Assembly: GCA_030523645.1 (NCBI GenBank)
Contig: JAUNIB010000001.1
Coordinates: 248,001-312,000 of the forward strand
Direction: 5' to 3'
DNA: 64,000 bases
From: Selenomonadaceae bacterium
GTDB lineage: Bacteria > Bacillota > Negativicutes > Selenomonadales > Selenomonadaceae
Of this stretch, positions 2,668-64,000 are shown in pieces (position 1 is the stretch's first letter; the number at the start of each line of letters is the position of its first letter). The translations under genes were made by a program, and so were the position numbers. The notes under the pieces were generated by a model, which did not search any database, was not told the origin of the DNA, and saw nothing but the letters and a program-made list of their open reading frames with translations.

Positions 2668-2683
2668 GTAATTAATCAGGTGA

Positions 2684-2761
2684 GCTGTGAACAAGGTCTG
2701 ACGAGAACACGCCTGCACGCGGTAATCAGTACAGCGGTTTTCGGACAGACCTGTTCACAGC
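2684..2761. repeat. Foldback element, short form (palindrome family copy 1)
   Basis: A 78-bp imperfect palindrome between purL and dtd. The left arm GCTGTGAACAAGGTCTGACG pairs with the right arm around 2732-2761. The centre (CGCGGTAATCAGTACAGCGG) resembles the centre of the copy at 26012-26147 without its inner hairpin. Shared core: GTCTGACGARAACACG on the left, CGGTTTTCNNACAGAC on the right. It could also act as a transcription terminator for purL, but no long T run follows directly. Confidence 0.75.
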
Positions 2762-2771
2762 CTTTTACATT

Positions 2772-6047: not shown

Positions 6048-10536
<4,489 letters not shown>

Positions 10537-10556
10537 TTTTTATATCAAATGGGACA

Positions 10557-10595
10557 GGGGCTGTGAAAAATGAGCATTCATTTTTTCACAGCCCC
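10557..10595 (+). terminator. Terminator hairpin of the shared GCTGTGAAAAATGA family
   Basis: GGGGCTGTGAAAAATGA pairs with TCATTTTTTCACAGCCCC around a four-base loop. It follows ligA by 20 bp and so can end the pcrA-ligA transcript. The same core recurs at 22380, 45991, 52650 and 56112. The 5' half can alternatively pair with AAGCCCCTGT at 10861-10870, which would enclose the whole downstream foldback element. Confidence 0.75.
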
Positions 10596-10596
10596 T

Positions 10597-10870
10597 TCCT
10601 CTATGTAAGTTGCGAAGAAAAATGTCTGTAAGAAAACCGTTTATCTGCGTCGGTACCTGGCGACCTGCAAGTAAGCATACGAAGCAGGAGCCTAGTACTG
10701 TTACGCAGATAACCCAGACTAACTCACTTAATGAATCCGAGTGAAACGATGGATGAATTTAGTGAGTGTCATGCATGCGACCTTAGCGATTGCCGAGTGT
10801 AACGACGGCAGAGCTTAGGGAGTCGCAGTGCGAGAGCGTGTTTTCGTCAGACTTTTTTCAAAGCCCCTGT
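10597..10870. repeat. Large multi-branched foldback element (palindrome family copy 2)
   Basis: No gene is visible in the 452 bp between ligA and 10989; most of it is this structure. Outer arms GTCTGTAAGAAAACCG (10624-10639) and CGTGTTTTCGTCAGAC (10837-10852) pair imperfectly. Inside are three successive hairpins: A 10641-10712 (TTATCTGCGT/ACGCAGATAA plus GTACC.../...GTAC), B 10722-10767 (ACTCACTTAATGAATCC with its complement) and C 10773-10831 (GCGACC... with ...GTCGC). Loops B and C share GAGTGWAACGA. The layout resembles a cloverleaf. The right end of this window carries a related element in inverse orientation. Confidence 0.75.
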
Positions 10871-10896
10871 TATTTTTATTTCTCCAATGAAAATAC

Positions 10897-10925
10897 TTGA
10901 AAAATTTATTGACAGGGGGCATAAT
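10897..10925 (+). promoter_or_regulatory. Predicted promoter for the 10989 gene
   Basis: -35 TTGAAA at 10897-10902, 17-bp spacer, -10 CATAAT at 10920-10925. It lies just after the foldback element and about 60 bp ahead of an AAGGAGG ribosome binding site. Confidence 0.6.
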
Positions 10926-10988
10926 TACAAGTTGAAGGACTAGCAGTTTTTTCAGATTTTTCTGTTTAGATAAGGAGGTTGAAGCACC

Positions 10989-12044
10989 ATGTTCAAGCTA
11001 TCTACGGCAACGAAAATCAAGCTCGCTGCCTTTGGTGTTTTTTTGCTGGCTGTCGCAGCTGGAGGCGTGTACTGGTATTTCGGCTATCACATAAAGACGG
11101 CTGACTATGCGATGAAGAAGATAGAGTCATCGCTGAAAGCTCACGATGCAAATGACTTCAATCATTACTATGATAAGGCTGCCTTTGTGGATAAAGTAAC
11201 GGATGATGTATCAGCGGGAATGCTTGATGACGGCAGCTCTCTCAAGGGCGATATGAGGTCGGCTGTCCTCGAGTTTGTAAAGATTTTCCGCGCACCTTTG
11301 AAGCAGAGCGTCGAGGGAATGACGAACCGCTTTATCCGTACCGGCAGCTTCTCCGGTGATGATGCGGCAGACAATATCCACATTGATTCCGCCATGCTCA
11401 TTCGTCGTCTGGGGCTTGATACGGTGGAGTACAGAGGGATTAAGTCTGTAGTAAACCGGGAGGAGAACGGCGAGAAGTATGCCGTCGCCAAGGTAGAGGT
11501 CTATCAGAAGGCGGTCGAGGCAGAGTTTCAGCTTGAGCTGGTACTGGTACCTGACAAGGAAGGAACTTATCGCCTGAATCATATCAGCAATTTGGCAGAG
11601 TTCTTCTCTCTGACAGCAGCAAAGCGTCATGAGAGAATAGACAATTACCTCAAGCAGATTGATACTTTGAACGAAGCCCACGATAAAAAGGTGGCAGCTA
11701 TCGAGCAGCAGATGTCACTGACCCTTGCCTCCGGCAATCTGGGGACACCGGCTACCCGCGAAAAGCTCCGCCTCATGGCTGAAAACGATCTGCTGAAGGA
11801 TTGGCAGGTGCGTCTGGCTGCTTTGGAGGCACTCAATGTCCCCGATGAGGTTCAGACACTTCACAATCTCTATGTGAAGATTGCCAAGGAAAATATCGAG
11901 TATGCAAAAGAGTATGCAGCCTGGCTGGTAGACAAAAAGGGCACCACTATCAGCAGTGCCCTGAACCGCCAGCGGGAGGCAAAGACCCTGACCGGAGAAG
12001 CGGCAAAAATCAGAAAGCAGATAAAGAGCAATGAGGGGTTCTGA
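10989..12044 (+). CDS. Membrane-anchored protein of unknown function, DUF2939-like
   Basis: 351 residues: a short basic N-terminus, one hydrophobic segment (about residues 11-31, LAAFGVFLLAVAAGGVYWYF), then a soluble part predicted outside the membrane. The region after the anchor (TADYAMKKIESSLKAHDAND followed by an F..YYDK motif) is reminiscent of DUF2939 proteins; this is a visual resemblance only. The C-terminal third is rich in charged helices and may form coiled coil. Excellent RBS (AAGGAGG, 10 nt before ATG). maf starts 20 bp downstream, so it probably leads a hyp-maf-radC operon. I do not know its function. Confidence 0.85.
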   Translation: MFKLSTATKIKLAAFGVFLLAVAAGGVYWYFGYHIKTADYAMKKIESSLKAHDANDFNHYYDKAAFVDKVTDDVSAGMLDDGSSLKGDMRSAVLEFVKIFRAPLKQSVEGMTNRFIRTGSFSGDDAADNIHIDSAMLIRRLGLDTVEYRGIKSVVNREENGEKYAVAKVEVYQKAVEAEFQLELVLVPDKEGTYRLNHISNLAEFFSLTAAKRHERIDNYLKQIDTLNEAHDKKVAAIEQQMSLTLASGNLGTPATREKLRLMAENDLLKDWQVRLAALEALNVPDEVQTLHNLYVKIAKENIEYAKEYAAWLVDKKGTTISSALNRQREAKTLTGEAAKIRKQIKSNEGF

Positions 12045-22372: not shown

Positions 22373-22379
22373 GACAACG

Positions 22380-22419
22380 GAGCTGTGAAAGATGAGCAGT
22401 CATTTTTCACAGCTCTTTT
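22380..22419 (+). terminator. Rho-independent terminator, GCTGTGAAAAATGA family
   Basis: GAGCTGTGAAAGATGA pairs with TCATTTTTCACAGCTC, followed by TTTTG. Eight bp after the GGDEF gene stop. Confidence 0.88.
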
Positions 22420-23567: not shown

Positions 23568-26006
23568 ATGCAGGTTTCTATTAAATGGCTTAAAGATTAT
23601 ATAGATTTCACCGAGACCGCCGAGGAGCTGGCTGAGAAGCTGACTCGTGCCGGTGTTCCGGTAGAGAATGTTATTCGGGCAGATAAGGGTCTGGAGAAGG
23701 TTGTTACCGGCCGTGTAGACGAAATCGTTCGTCACCCGGACTCTGACCACATGTTCATCTGCACCATGAATGTGGGAGAAGACAAGCCTCTCACCATCGT
23801 TACCGGTGCTCAGAATGTCCATCAGGGTGATGTCGTGCCGGTAGCTCTTGTAGGTGCCGACCTTCCCTGTGGCAAGAAGATTGCCAAGTCCAAGCTCCGC
23901 GGCGTAGCCTCTGCCGGTATGCTCTGCTCCGCAGATGAAATCAAGATTGATACTACCGGTCTCACCGAGGCACAGCTGAACGGTATTTATATTCTGGACG
24001 CCGATACTCCTATCGGCCGTCCCATTGCTGAGGTTCTTGGCCTCGATGATGCTGTATTGGAGTTCGAGCTCACGGCAAACCGTGCCGACTGCTTCAGCGT
24101 AATCGGTATCGTCCGTGAGATAGCAGCTCTTACCGGCAATCAGCCCAAGTGGCCGGATATAAAGGTCACTGAGGATGATGCGGCAAAGGCTGCCGATATG
24201 ATTAAGATTGCTATCGACGATCCGGACCTTTGCTCCCGCTTCTCCGCCCGTGTGCTGAAGAATGTAAAAATCGGTCCCTCTCCGGCGTGGATGCGTACCC
24301 GTCTCGAAGGTGCAGGAATCCGCTCCATCAGCAATGTAGTCGATGTAACCAACTTTGTAATGGTTGAGCTTGGTCAGCCTATGCACGCTTACGACTACGA
24401 TGAGATTGCCGGTCAGTCTCTCACTGCCCGCCGGGCCAATGCCGGCGAGGAGCTGCATACTCTTGATGATTCTTCCCGTCTTGCCAAGGGCGGCGAGCTG
24501 GTTATTGCCGATGCCGTAAAGGCAGCCGGTCTTGCCGGTGTAATGGGCGGATTGGAAACCGAAATCACCGAGAAGACTACTACCGTCGTATTGGAAGCAG
24601 CTTCCTTCTTTGGACCTTCCATCCGTCGTACCTCCCGCTCCATCGGTCTTCATTCCGAGGCCTCCGGCCGTTTTGAGCGCGGTATAGATGTAGAGCATAC
24701 CATCCGTGCCCTTGATCGTGCAGCCCAGCTCCTTCAGGATATGGGTGCCTGCACCGTTGCTCAGGGTGTTATCGATGTATATCCGGCTCCGAAGGAGCAG
24801 CCGGTTGTTCCGTTCACTGCCGAGCAGATTAATAAGCGTCTCGGCACCGATATCCCGGCAGAAGAAATCCTCCGCATCCTTGCTTCCCTCGATATCGAGG
24901 TTAAGGATCTTGGCGGCGGCAATTACGAGGCTGTTTCTCCCACCTGGAGAAAAGATATCGCCCTCATGGAAGACATCTCCGAGGAAATTGCCCGCATCTA
25001 CAGCTATGACAATATTCGGGCTACTCTTCCCAGAGGCGGCGTAATGCTGGCCCGTCAGAGCGAGGATCAGAACCTTGTAGACAAGATTACGGAAACTCTC
25101 GTGGCCCAGGGTATGCTGGAGACCCGTTCCTTCAGCTTCCAGCATCCGGATATGTGCGACAAGCTGAATGTTCCGGCTGACAGCATTCTCCGCACCATGA
25201 TTCCTATCATGAATCCGCTGTCCGACGATTATCCCAATGTCCGCACCTGCATTCTCACCACTCTCTTTGAGACTGTTCTGCGGAACTTCGCCCGTAAGAA
25301 CGAAGATGTCCGTGTATTTGAAATCGGCCCTGTTTTCTTCCCGAAGGCTCTGCCGGTAACCGAGCTGCCTGACCAGAAGCTGAAGCTGGCCGGCGTAATC
25401 TCCGGTCGCCGCTATCCCCAGAACTGGACCGACAGCAATGAGATGGTTGACTTCTACGATGCCAAGGGTATCGTTGAGAGTCTCCTTGATGCCATCGGCA
25501 TTCGTGACTGTGCTGTCGAGGCCGGTGAGCATTTCTGCCTCCATCCGGGCAAGACTGCCGTATTCAAGAAGGGCCGTGAGGTTATCGCTACCGTGGGTGA
25601 AGTTCATCCGCAGGTCATGGAAAACCTTGGCACCAAAAAGAAGATGTATATGTTTGTCCTGACTGACATCAAGACTCTTCTGAAATATACCGGCAAGAAG
25701 GCGAAGTTCACTCAGCTGCCGAAATATCCGGCTGTTGAGCGTGACCTGGCTCTTACTGTTGCCGATGATGTGTCTGCCGGACTTATTGCCCGCACCATCA
25801 CCAAGCAGGGCGGCAAGTATCTCCAGAGCGTAAATCTCTTTGACCTGTACACCGGCAAGCAGCTGGGCGAGGGTAAGAAGAGTCTGGCGTTCTCCCTGAA
25901 GTTCCGGGCGGCTGACCGTACCCTTACCGATGAGGAAGTTGATGTAGCATTCAATGCTATTGTCGAGGCAGTGGCAAAGAACTTCGGCGCTGAGCTTCGT
26001 AAATAA
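23568..26006 (+). CDS. pheT: Phenylalanine--tRNA ligase beta subunit
   Basis: 812 residues, full length. N-terminal tRNA-binding OB domain (about 40-150), B3/B4 editing domain, B5 domain (TAEQINKRLGTDIPAEEIL), core catalytic-like domain and a C-terminal anticodon-binding FDX-ACB domain (FTQLPKYPAVERDLAL to the end). It binds tRNA-Phe and edits mischarged Tyr. Followed by a foldback repeat instead of a simple terminator. Confidence 0.96.
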   Translation: MQVSIKWLKDYIDFTETAEELAEKLTRAGVPVENVIRADKGLEKVVTGRVDEIVRHPDSDHMFICTMNVGEDKPLTIVTGAQNVHQGDVVPVALVGADLPCGKKIAKSKLRGVASAGMLCSADEIKIDTTGLTEAQLNGIYILDADTPIGRPIAEVLGLDDAVLEFELTANRADCFSVIGIVREIAALTGNQPKWPDIKVTEDDAAKAADMIKIAIDDPDLCSRFSARVLKNVKIGPSPAWMRTRLEGAGIRSISNVVDVTNFVMVELGQPMHAYDYDEIAGQSLTARRANAGEELHTLDDSSRLAKGGELVIADAVKAAGLAGVMGGLETEITEKTTTVVLEAASFFGPSIRRTSRSIGLHSEASGRFERGIDVEHTIRALDRAAQLLQDMGACTVAQGVIDVYPAPKEQPVVPFTAEQINKRLGTDIPAEEILRILASLDIEVKDLGGGNYEAVSPTWRKDIALMEDISEEIARIYSYDNIRATLPRGGVMLARQSEDQNLVDKITETLVAQGMLETRSFSFQHPDMCDKLNVPADSILRTMIPIMNPLSDDYPNVRTCILTTLFETVLRNFARKNEDVRVFEIGPVFFPKALPVTELPDQKLKLAGVISGRRYPQNWTDSNEMVDFYDAKGIVESLLDAIGIRDCAVEAGEHFCLHPGKTAVFKKGREVIATVGEVHPQVMENLGTKKKMYMFVLTDIKTLLKYTGKKAKFTQLPKYPAVERDLALTVADDVSAGLIARTITKQGGKYLQSVNLFDLYTGKQLGEGKKSLAFSLKFRAADRTLTDEEVDVAFNAIVEAVAKNFGAELRK

Positions 26007-26011
26007 AGCAG

Positions 26012-26147
26012 CGTGAATAAGGTCTGACGAAAACACGCTCTCGCTCGGCAATCAACATAGCGGCACTAGGCTCCTGCGTCGCATGCTTGCTCGCAGGTCG
26101 CCAAGTACCGATGTTGATTAACGGTTTTCTTACAGACATTATTCACT
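26012..26147. repeat. Foldback element (palindrome family copy 3)
   Basis: A palindrome of about 136 bp just after pheT. Locus-specific outer arms GTGAATAA (26013-26020) / TTATTCAC (26139-26146); family core GTCTGACGAAAACACG / CGGTTTTCTTACAGAC; inner arm AATCAACAT / ATGTTGATT; central hairpin CGGCACTAGGCTCCTGC / GCAGGTCGCCAAGTACCG with a 15-base loop. It is the clearest complete copy with a single inner hairpin. Confidence 0.8.
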
Positions 26148-26164
26148 TGGATATCACATTAAGG

Positions 26165-34982: not shown

Positions 34983-35011
34983 ATGCGGATAAAACTTATA
35001 ATTCAACTACT

Positions 35012-35148
35012 GTCGAAATATCATCTAACGGAAACTTGCTTTTGCTCTGTTGTTCACGCAGCGGTACTAAGCTCTGACTGCACCGGCCGGTTTGTCAGTC
35101 GCTAAGTACCGGCGTTCACAAAGGCTTCCTTATAGATGATATTTCGTC
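35012..35148. repeat. Foldback element (palindrome family copy 4)
   Basis: Fills most of the 387-bp gap between aspS and hrcA; the rest holds a terminator and the hrcA control region. Locus-specific outer arms GTCGAAATATCATCT / AGATGATATTTCGTC; family core AACGGAAACTTG / AGGCTTCCTTAT; inner hairpin with CGGTACTAAGCTCTGAC / GTCAGTCGCTAAGTACCG. The inner part matches the CGGCACTAGGCTCCTGC segment of copy 3. Confidence 0.75.
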
Positions 35149-35197
35149 AGCACAACACTAGTGAAGAAAAAATCTTAAATTTTTAGACCTTGACTTA

Positions 35198-44590: not shown

Positions 44591-45343
44591 GTGCCTGTAG
44601 GGGTGGAAATCAAAGAGCGGGCTTGCTGCGGCAAGCCCCTACAACGGCGAGTCTTTACGGGGATAATGAAAAAAATATTCCCGTAAGTCAATAAACACTG
44701 TGTCCTTTGGGATAACGCCTGTAGGGGTCGCCCGCAGGCGACCCGAAAATGATGGAAACCAAAGAACGGGCTTGCTGCGGCAAGCCCCTACAACGGCGAG
44801 TCTTTACGGGGATAATGAAAAAAATATTCCCGTAAGTCAATAAACACTGTGTCCTTTGGGATAACGCCTGTAGGGGTCGCCCGCAGGCGACCCGAAAATG
44901 ATGGAAACCAAAGAACGGGCTTGCTGCGGCAAGCCCCTACAACGGCGAGTCTTTACGGGGATAATGAAAAAAATATTCCCGTAAGTCAATAAACACTGTG
45001 TCCTTTGGGATAACGCCTGTAGGGGTCGCCCGCAGGCGACCCGAAAATGATGGAAACCAAAGAACGGGCTTGCTGCGGCAAGCCCCTACAACGGCGAGTC
45101 TTTACGGGGATAATGCAAAAAATATTCCCGTAAATCAATAAATCCTGTGTCCTATGGGATAACGCCTGTGGGGGTCGCCCGCAGGCGACCCGAAAATGGT
45201 GGAGCCTGAAGAACGGGCTTGCTGCGGCAAGCCCCTACAACGGCGAGTCTTTATGGGGATAATGAAAAAATATTCCTGTAAATCAATAAACACCGTGTCC
45301 TTTGGGATACCGCCTGTAGGGGTCGCCCGCAGGCGACCCGAAA
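44591..45343. repeat. Tandem array of REPIN-containing units, period 149 bp
   Basis: The 803 bp between the floA partner and the RAYT gene. Six units start with CTGTAG at 44595, 44719, 44868, 45017, 45166 and 45314 (spacings 124, 149, 149, 149, 148). Each full unit has a REPIN: REP-a GTAG plus hairpin GGGTCGCC-CGCA-GGCGACCC, a spacer of about 20 bp, and the inverted REP-b GGGCTTGC-TGCG-GCAAGCCC-CTAC. The rest of the unit has a third hairpin (TTACGGGGATA / TATTCCCGTAA). Units 1-3 are nearly identical; unit 0 lacks most of REP-a; the last is a lone REP-a 39 bp before the RAYT start. Confidence 0.92.
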
Positions 45344-45381
45344 TATCCATTGTCGAGGGCGTAACATCAGAGGTGGCAACA

Positions 45382-45831
45382 ATGACTGAACTGCCAAAAC
45401 GAAAAAATATCCGCCTAAATGCAGAGAACTATGCAATGGGTGGATATTTTTTCATTACTGTTTGTGTCCGTGATAGAAAACAAATTTTAGGGACGATAAG
45501 AAATGGAACGACAGAATTAACCGACATAGGAAAGTTAATCGAGGAAGAAATTAATCTGATGTCATCCTATCACGACTCTACAGAAATAGTTGATGTGGTT
45601 ATTATGCCGGACCATGTTCATTTTATTATGCGTTATGAAGGAGCGAAAACACATTTCGGTCGGATTGTTGGCAATATGAAATCTGCCGTTACGAGAAGGT
45701 TGGGATATAGTATTTGGCAGAGAAATTATTATGAACACATTATCCGCAACGAGACAGAATTATTGGAGACTCAGCGTTATATGCAGGATAATCCTTTGCG
45801 TTGGGAATTAAGGTGCAAGGGGTTGGTTTAA
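45382..45831 (+). CDS. REP-associated tyrosine transposase (RAYT, Y1 family)
   Basis: 149 residues, the usual RAYT size. Single-strand HUH-type transposase: HUH motif MPDHVHFIM (His78, His80), candidate catalytic Tyr116/Tyr117 in WQRNYYEHIIRNE, and a C-terminal family signature YMQDNPLRWEL. Homologues act on REP hairpins by cutting near a 5' GTAG. AGAGGTGG lies 6 nt before the ATG at 45382; the frame is open back to 45196 but that part only reads the repeat array. Base composition is visibly AT-richer than the flanking core genes, suggesting horizontal origin. REP sequences flank it on both sides. Confidence 0.93.
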   Translation: MTELPKRKNIRLNAENYAMGGYFFITVCVRDRKQILGTIRNGTTELTDIGKLIEEEINLMSSYHDSTEIVDVVIMPDHVHFIMRYEGAKTHFGRIVGNMKSAVTRRLGYSIWQRNYYEHIIRNETELLETQRYMQDNPLRWELRCKGLV

Positions 45832-45937: not shown

Positions 45938-45986
45938 TATAACGGCAAGTCGCTGCAGGATGCCAACATAAAATCTATTTGACATA

Positions 45987-46034
45987 AAAACGGCTGTGAA
46001 AAAATGATTGCTCATTTTTTCACAGCCGTTTTTT
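45987..46034. terminator. Bidirectional terminator, GCTGTGAAAAATGA family
   Basis: Perfect 22-bp stem (AAAAACGGCTGTGAAAAAATGA and complement) with loop TTGC, with A and T runs on both sides. Separates the + strand RAYT region from the - strand signalling operon; the stop codon of the receiver gene lies at its edge. Confidence 0.92.
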
Positions 46035-56095: not shown

Positions 56096-56111
56096 AATCA
56101 GATTTTGTGGG

Positions 56112-56152
56112 GATTGTGAAAAATGAGTACTCATTTTTCACAGTCATTTTTT
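56112..56152 (+). terminator. Rho-independent terminator, GCTGTGAAAAATGA family
   Basis: GATTGTGAAAAATGAGTA / CTCATTTTTCACAGTC with one mismatch region, then ATTTTTTG. Sixteen bp after the MarR gene. Confidence 0.9.
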
Positions 56153-63814: not shown

Positions 63815-63818
63815 AAAA

Positions 63819-64000
63819 GGGGCTGTGAAAAAAGTCTGACACCGACCTCATCCGTCTCGCTTCGCGAGCCACCTTCCCCAAAGGGGAAGGTCTTTACCCT
63901 CTCCTTTGGAGAGGGGGGACCGGCGCAGCCGGTGGGTGAGGTAGATAAACGGTTTTCTTACAGACATTTTTCTTCGCAACTACATAGAGGAAGGGACTGT
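63819..64000. repeat. Composite foldback element (palindrome family copy 5, cut by window end)
   Basis: GGGGCTGTGAAAAAAGTCTGAC (two parts, 63819-63840) and GGTTTTCTTACAGAC...GAGGAAGGGACTGT (63951-64000) match, in inverse order, the two flanks of the element at 10597-10870. Between them, instead of three hairpins, sits an inverted pair of double-hairpin elements (63844-63943: ACCTCATCC... and ...GGTGGGTGAGGTA). This looks like one repeat family nested in another. The element continues past base 64000. Confidence 0.75.

Follow-up and report, generated by a model that had tools for sequence, protein, structure and literature searches.

The BOX element of Streptococcus pneumoniae has been described as a composite intergenic repeat in which the outer parts pair with each other and the inner hairpin modules vary in number; BOX repeats insert into other repeats and are now slow to move (PMC3049150). 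In the Bacillus cereus group, bcr1 to bcr18 are presented as high-copy, intergenic, and MITE-like repeats, some with a conserved secondary structure and many of them transcribed (PMC3446304). The REP/BIME sequences of the GTAG and CGTC super-families are imperfect intergenic palindromes, often forming inverted dimers and in some cases lying within other palindromes, and the same account treats the CGTC type as one without a known transposase (PMC3733652). Group IIC introns, for their part, are reported to insert at terminator hairpins and imperfect palindromes (PMC4424553).

The structure that follows ligA in the window analyzed here, a stretch of 64,000 nucleotides from a Selenomonadaceae bacterium, represents a composite copy of E1, a repeat dispersed through the genome, and not a ligA-specific RNA. 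E1 is a gene-free repeat of about 150 bp, present at about 75 places in the genome of this rumen-type bacterium, and its design combines a long variable outer stem, a UAA/GU loop, a stem P2, a three-way junction, one long arm, and a mini-hairpin with a GNRA loop. By analogy, it stands nearest to the composite small interspersed repeats, and to BOX in particular: the outer modules of E1 pair, and its inner hairpin modules are optional (no arm, one arm, an arm plus a unit termed E3, or a unit termed E2 instead), a likeness of build, taken from the description of BOX, that claims no relation in sequence. New with respect to the BOX kind are the larger branched fold, with its three-way junction and GNRA hairpin, the variable outer stem, and the fact that the additional module, E3, is an independent repeat that occupies loops. 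E1 also resembles bcr1 to bcr18 in being high-copy, intergenic, and MITE-like. With REP/BIME sequences it shares the form of imperfect intergenic palindromes, but it is branched and about 150 bp long, as opposed to a hairpin of 20 to 40 bp, and its hairpin base carries no GTAG tag. Like group IIC introns, it sits at terminator-like hairpins, but it is without an intron-encoded protein or known domain V, and no reverse transcriptase was found in its host.

The upstream gene is identified as ligA by Pfam (DNA_ligase_aden and others), and the ORF at 10989-12044, downstream of the structure, matches no Pfam family. The minimum-energy fold of 10557-10870 includes the three hairpins recognized in the preliminary description as well as the outer stem, in which GTCTGTAAGAAAACCG (10624-10639) pairs with CGTGTTTTCGTCAGAC (10838-10853), and its energy of -130.1 kcal/mol compares with -82.5 +/- 5.1 for dinucleotide shuffles (z, -9.3), 0 of 100 of which equal it. 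The outer stem pairs as had been claimed, but its extent was understated, with GTTGCGAAGAAAAATGTCTG (10609-10628) also pairing with the sequence that begins CAGACTTTTTTC from 10848 on. Likewise, the wider pairing of AGGGGCTGTG with CAAAGCCCCT is feasible, but 10556-10597 mainly folds on itself as a near-perfect hairpin. Arms 2 and 3 do have the motif GAGTGWAACGA in common, and a larger frame, CTTARYGA ... GARCTTAG, with a UU mismatch and tandem G.A, plus an A/GA internal loop, recurs in each of the three arms. The supposition that the ligA transcript ends before the structure found no support: no T-run follows the 10556-10597 hairpin, and a scan finds only a weak terminator-like site of 5 pairs at 10517-10531, within the end of ligA. 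As anticipated, a promoter-like sequence lies downstream, TTGAAA-17-CATAAT at 10897-10925, upstream of the ORF at 10989 (10 of 12 matches; one site found, with 0.8 expected by chance). Rfam yielded no window match at the gathering score, and a relaxed Rfam search of 10500-10950 returned chance-like weak matches alone, mostly to microRNA and snoRNA families. The parts of this copy and the other copies in the window are collected in Table 1.

Table 1. Parts of the composite E1 copy after ligA and further E1 copies in the window
Feature	Coordinates	Strand	Remarks
LH hairpin AGGGGCTGTGAAAAATGA-GCAT-TCATTTTTTCACAGCCCCT	10556..10597	+	Repeated terminator-like palindrome adjoining E1
Linker, conserved left end of E1	10598..10608	+	CCTCTATGTAA in the window copy; the majority of copies have CCTTAATGTAA
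Outer stem P1 and P2 with the UAA internal loop, 5' strand	10609..10639	+	
Arm 1 (P3 of E1)	10640..10714	+	CT bulge, UU mismatch, tandem G.A, A/GA loop, AGCA loop
E3 (arms 2 and 3)	10715..10829	+	Separate two-arm repeat at the P3/P4 junction of E1; missing from one-arm copies, e.g., L091-L094
P4 mini-hairpin GC-GAGA-GC	10830..10837	+	GNRA loop
P2 and P1, 3' strand CGTGTTTTCGTCAGACTTTTTTCAAAGCCCC	10838..10868	+	
Probable 3' arm and T-tract of old ligA terminator, TTTTTTCAAAGCCCCTGTTATTTTTATT	10854..10881	+	From comparison with the sister Schwartzia MAG
E1 copy without arm 1, after GACGACAAAGCCGTC hairpin	2677..2770	-	26.9 bits
One-arm E1 copy	26003..26158	-	159.8 bits
One-arm E1 copy	35004..35158	-	139.9 bits; same site occupied in sister MAG (C55:8664)
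E1 copy (L100), with E2 (63840-63945) at the place of arm 1	63815..64000	-	Extends beyond the window end

When 10540-10880 was compared with its own genome (2.31 Mb in 15 contigs), there were at least 97 matches (40 of 152 candidates scored), most of them partial and two near full-length besides the query. The second three-armed copy sought in this genome exists twice, at C14:229246-229565 and C8:167442-167751 (91-92%). A covariance model, R1, built from 38 aligned one-arm copies, gave at least 87 matches at E 0.01 or better, which merge into at least 77 places, a lower bound that reflects the scoring of 150 of 523 candidates. In a sister Schwartzia MAG, the ligA protein of which shows 92% identity, R1 found 108 matches at E 0.001 or better, and in two other Schwartzia MAGs it found none. 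What had been taken for a single intergenic cloverleaf belonging to ligA is instead a high-copy repeat that harbors a second, nested repeat and occurs in either orientation beside unrelated genes, and the dispersed copies exclude a ligA-specific riboswitch or terminator.

The modules of E1 come in the order palindrome (often LH), linker, outer stem P1, GTAAGAAAACC, payload, and closing strands. The payload may be arm 1 alone (L091-L096), arm 1 with arms 2 and 3 (the window copy, L089, and L090), or empty (L103 and L104); in L097, arms 2 and 3 lie within the loop of arm 1. In other copies, arm 1 is replaced by the GC-rich four-hairpin unit E2, beginning CCTCACCCACCGGC (L098, L100, and L102), which looks like a third repeat family and which may in turn contain another unit (L099, L101, L105, and L108). 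The arms of P1 are complementary within a copy and differ between copies. Copying of P1 from the target site at insertion is conceivable, but the P1 stems of related copies look like drift from a common TGAATAATGTCTG form. In some places (L106 1482-1500; sister C68:33098), the linker in reverse orientation, where it has the sequence TTACATTAAGG or a close variant, coincides with the probable ribosome-binding site of the gene that follows.

Across the copies of E1, the folded shape is kept while the letters change. The 38 one-arm copies were hand-picked from side-by-side copies and from a loose pattern-plus-fold scan, the output of which was mostly coding noise; L095 and L126, which have weaker folds, were retained among them. 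Their MAFFT alignment has 45 consensus pairs, 33 of which changed on both sides, and 96.3% of the cells pair. In a larger set of 138 copies from the own genome and the sister MAG (E 1e-15 or better), aligned by fitting to the model and hence biased toward structure, 95.6% of paired cells pair, as against a mean of 80.0% for shuffled and 29-44% for slid versions, and the 38-copy alignment agrees. A further alignment across genera, obtained with R2 (R1 widened with a second genus), has 98.1% of cells paired (35 sequences). The preliminary description favored a structured RNA or a protein-recognized DNA fold over a terminator, and this fits the compensatory, both-sided changes at 40 of the 45 pairs over the 138 copies and the conserved loop and bulge motifs, which include a GNRA tetraloop on P4 in 123 copies (GNYA in 1) and UAA/GU between P1 and P2, at the hairpin base, in 104. 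Because G.U cells exceed A.C cells (199 versus 76, a single pair column giving 62 of the G.U; by column, 24 versus 13, with 8 ties), the data favor a single folded strand, the one written, over a symmetric cruciform as the conserved form, which does not in itself prove an RNA.

Such conservation raises the possibility of a structured RNA with a host function, be it a 3' UTR element, a riboswitch, or an sRNA, that has spread through its usefulness. The strong covariation, the GNRA loop, and the preference for one folded strand would suit it; however, a host-serving RNA does not follow from covariation alone, the G.U excess, itself modest, owes much to one column, and no Rfam family was found at threshold, nor a credible one in the relaxed search. 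Further, many sites are not shared with the sister MAG in spite of the closeness of the ligA proteins, and the orientation of neighboring genes is inconsistent: 114 copies (excluding 18 that overlap an ORF call and 13 at stretch ends) divide into 35 ++, 30 +-, 30 --, and 19 -+, a mixture expected of a mobile element rather than of a 3' UTR signal. We regard a host RNA as unlikely. Relative to local GC skew, own copies are 48 anti and 23 co and sister copies 24 and 16, counts that are confounded by local skew and shared stretches. It is also conceivable that the pairing is maintained by mutation, namely, template switching between palindrome arms, and not by selection. P1 changes fast and yet stays paired, and the variable pair of the LH pattern is Watson-Crick in 42 of 45 matches in the own stretches scanned, a strand-wise count in which one palindrome can score on both strands. 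The unpaired UAA/GU and GNRA motifs are kept as well, however, as are short helices, and the excess of G.U over A.C likewise speaks against template switching, which we consider distinctly unlikely.

Hairpins are frequent in the surroundings of the copies. Among 133 full copies with sufficient flank, the linker is present in 110 (up to 3 mismatches) and absent in 23; CCTTAATGTA with at most 1 mismatch occurs in 77 copies, as against 1 in a scrambled control. In 60 of the 110 copies, the end of a stem with 7 or more pairs lies no farther than 8 bases from the linker, compared with 5 on the far side and 6 in shuffled sequence. As an association, then, E1 directly adjoins terminator-like hairpins. 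Solitary, terminator-like LH-type palindromes with a CTGTGAAAAAATGA core also occur in the window, at 22379-22418, 45986-46033, and 56110-56143, with flanking pairs that vary with their complement. The idea of the LH hairpin as an uptake sequence was dropped, the exact 15-mer occurring 8 times.

At the same place after ligA, the sister Schwartzia MAG has a plain terminator hairpin followed by the T-tract TTATTTTTATTT, which in the window lies just to the right of the element. Comparison with this plain terminator in the sister suggests that the pairing of AGGGGCTGTG with CAAAGCCCCT is the remnant of the old ligA terminator, with the 5' arm of the LH hairpin at 10556..10597 probably being the 5' arm of that terminator. 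E1 carrying E3 would have entered the terminator or landed beside it, thereby separating the terminator stem from its T-tract.

E3 itself is found in 12 copies in the own stretches and 5 in those of the sister MAG, by a search pattern that catches close copies only. All 17 lie within other palindromic repeats, in one of their loops or junctions, contexts being judged by eye, with the caveat that stem-breaking insertions may have been removed by selection and hence be unseen; the hosts are the P3/P4 junction of E1, the arm loop of E1, and the loops of GC-rich hairpins. Comparison of the copies shows that the three-armed form at ligA arose from E3 within E1, in a composite that remains foldable.

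The question of movement was approached by comparing sites between the two genomes, using 73 of the 77 own and 72 of the 75 sister copies from the match list, within fetched stretches, and reading the site pairs by eye among the matches listed. At some sites, a copy is present in one species and missing from the other, examples being sister C69:6344, opposite which the own genome has an LH terminator, and sister C47:12867. The same spacer may also have different occupants, as with own C8:167436 (-), three-armed, versus sister C49:1393 (+), one-armed. Pairs with occupants in opposite orientation number at least 23, halves included, many of them confounded by neighboring copies; the clear cases are the C8:167436/C49:1393 pair just named and own C3:84378 (+) with sister C2:8069 (-). 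There are deletion-like empty sites that retain the linker and half of P1 (e.g., the own counterpart of sister C3:6376) and true orthologs (own C5:43457 with sister C99:13011 and the window copy at 35004 with its sister counterpart). The identity of nearest neighbors among 59 own copies has a median of 0.81 and a maximum of 0.95 rounded. Because no own pair reaches 95% unrounded, we infer the movement of E1 from the species comparison and not from fresh copies, and recent movement is without support. By eye, no target duplication was seen in 14 compared site pairs. The B. cereus element bcr1 makes a target duplication, which has no counterpart seen in E1, and it belongs to another host group. 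A 15-of-16 repeat flanks the ligA copy and is absent around other copies with LH, and no fixed terminal repeat of E1 was found among the compared copies.

As to a mobilizing enzyme, one candidate might be a RAYT, a Y1 transposase that would mobilize E1 as a REP/BIME element. The arms do form imperfect hairpins in which the mismatches are conserved, there are head-to-head pairs, and the window does encode one RAYT-like protein (Y1_Tnp, 45382-45828). Its gene, however, adjoins a 149-bp tandem array (44800-45350) with units that contain its own GTAG-type REPs, TGTAGGGG...CCCCTACA, and the two form a REPtron-like locus separate from E1. Across 121 genomes, Y1_Tnp does not track E1, being missing from 6 of the 15 E1-positive genomes (present in 9) and present in 48 of the 106 E1-negative ones; in 14 Y1-gene loci scanned, no RAYT gene was flanked by E1, the sole arm lying about 4.9 kb from its Y1 gene. 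On these grounds, mobilization by the resident RAYT was rejected, and the REP/BIME explanation as a whole appears highly unlikely. A degenerate retroelement akin to group IIC introns, with a folded RNA inserted at terminators, would agree with the terminator-hairpin habit of these introns (PMC4424553), and the GNRA loop and one-strand folding suit RNA. Against this, RVT_1 has no match in the own genome (listed as 100% complete) or the sister MAG (G000 and G009), on which ground a reverse transcriptase in the host was rejected; it is present in 4 of 9 E1-positive genomes tried. There is also no Rfam group II match, and loops of nonterminator palindromes are hit too. Such a retroelement seems to us very improbable.

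Beyond the two genomes, R1 matches 15 of 121 genomes and 3 of 30 genera of the family, and R2 matches 34 of 380 genomes and 9 of 102 genera of the class, the matches being strong and full-length in two genera and weaker, partly arm-only, elsewhere. By eye, the frame CTTAGCGA...GAGCTTAG of the arm reappears in different contexts in the genera with weaker matches. In G159, from another family of the class, short arm-like hairpins stand in tandem or singly (L271-L274), each followed by CCTTGTGGTATAAT or a similar TATAAT-like, promoter-like box. A distant blastn search with the core of one one-arm copy gave no match in phages or plasmids, and a 20-base pattern had no exact match in viral contigs; on these negatives, carriage of E1 by viruses or plasmids was rejected. 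A search of the open-licence literature returned no description of a repeat of this kind from Selenomonas, Selenomonadaceae, or Negativicutes, a result that argues only weakly for the absence of earlier reports; other Negativicutes motifs are named in two surveys of bacterial structured RNAs (PMC8632094, PMC6429828).

Taking these findings together, we propose that E1 is probably a dispersed, noncoding, nonautonomous, BOX-like mobile repeat with hairpin-guided insertion, of which the window holds a composite copy. A putative enzyme might recognize the arm CTTAGCGA...GAGCTTAG in its folded, single-stranded form and move E1 and E3 units, and the same enzyme might select hairpin loops or hairpin feet as targets. 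More tentatively, E1 and E3 could represent a new class of structure-seeking element, in which a folded strand of RNA or DNA is joined by an enzyme to the feet or loops of hairpins so that stacked elements stay foldable, and the arm may mark the same machinery in other families. With about 75 copies per genome, a strong constraint on pairing, and an occurrence in two species and a second genus, these repeats offer an unusually rich natural data set for the study of a mobile structured element. Should hairpins truly direct insertion, this would explain the growth of composite palindromes in intergenic DNA and would give a testable target rule.
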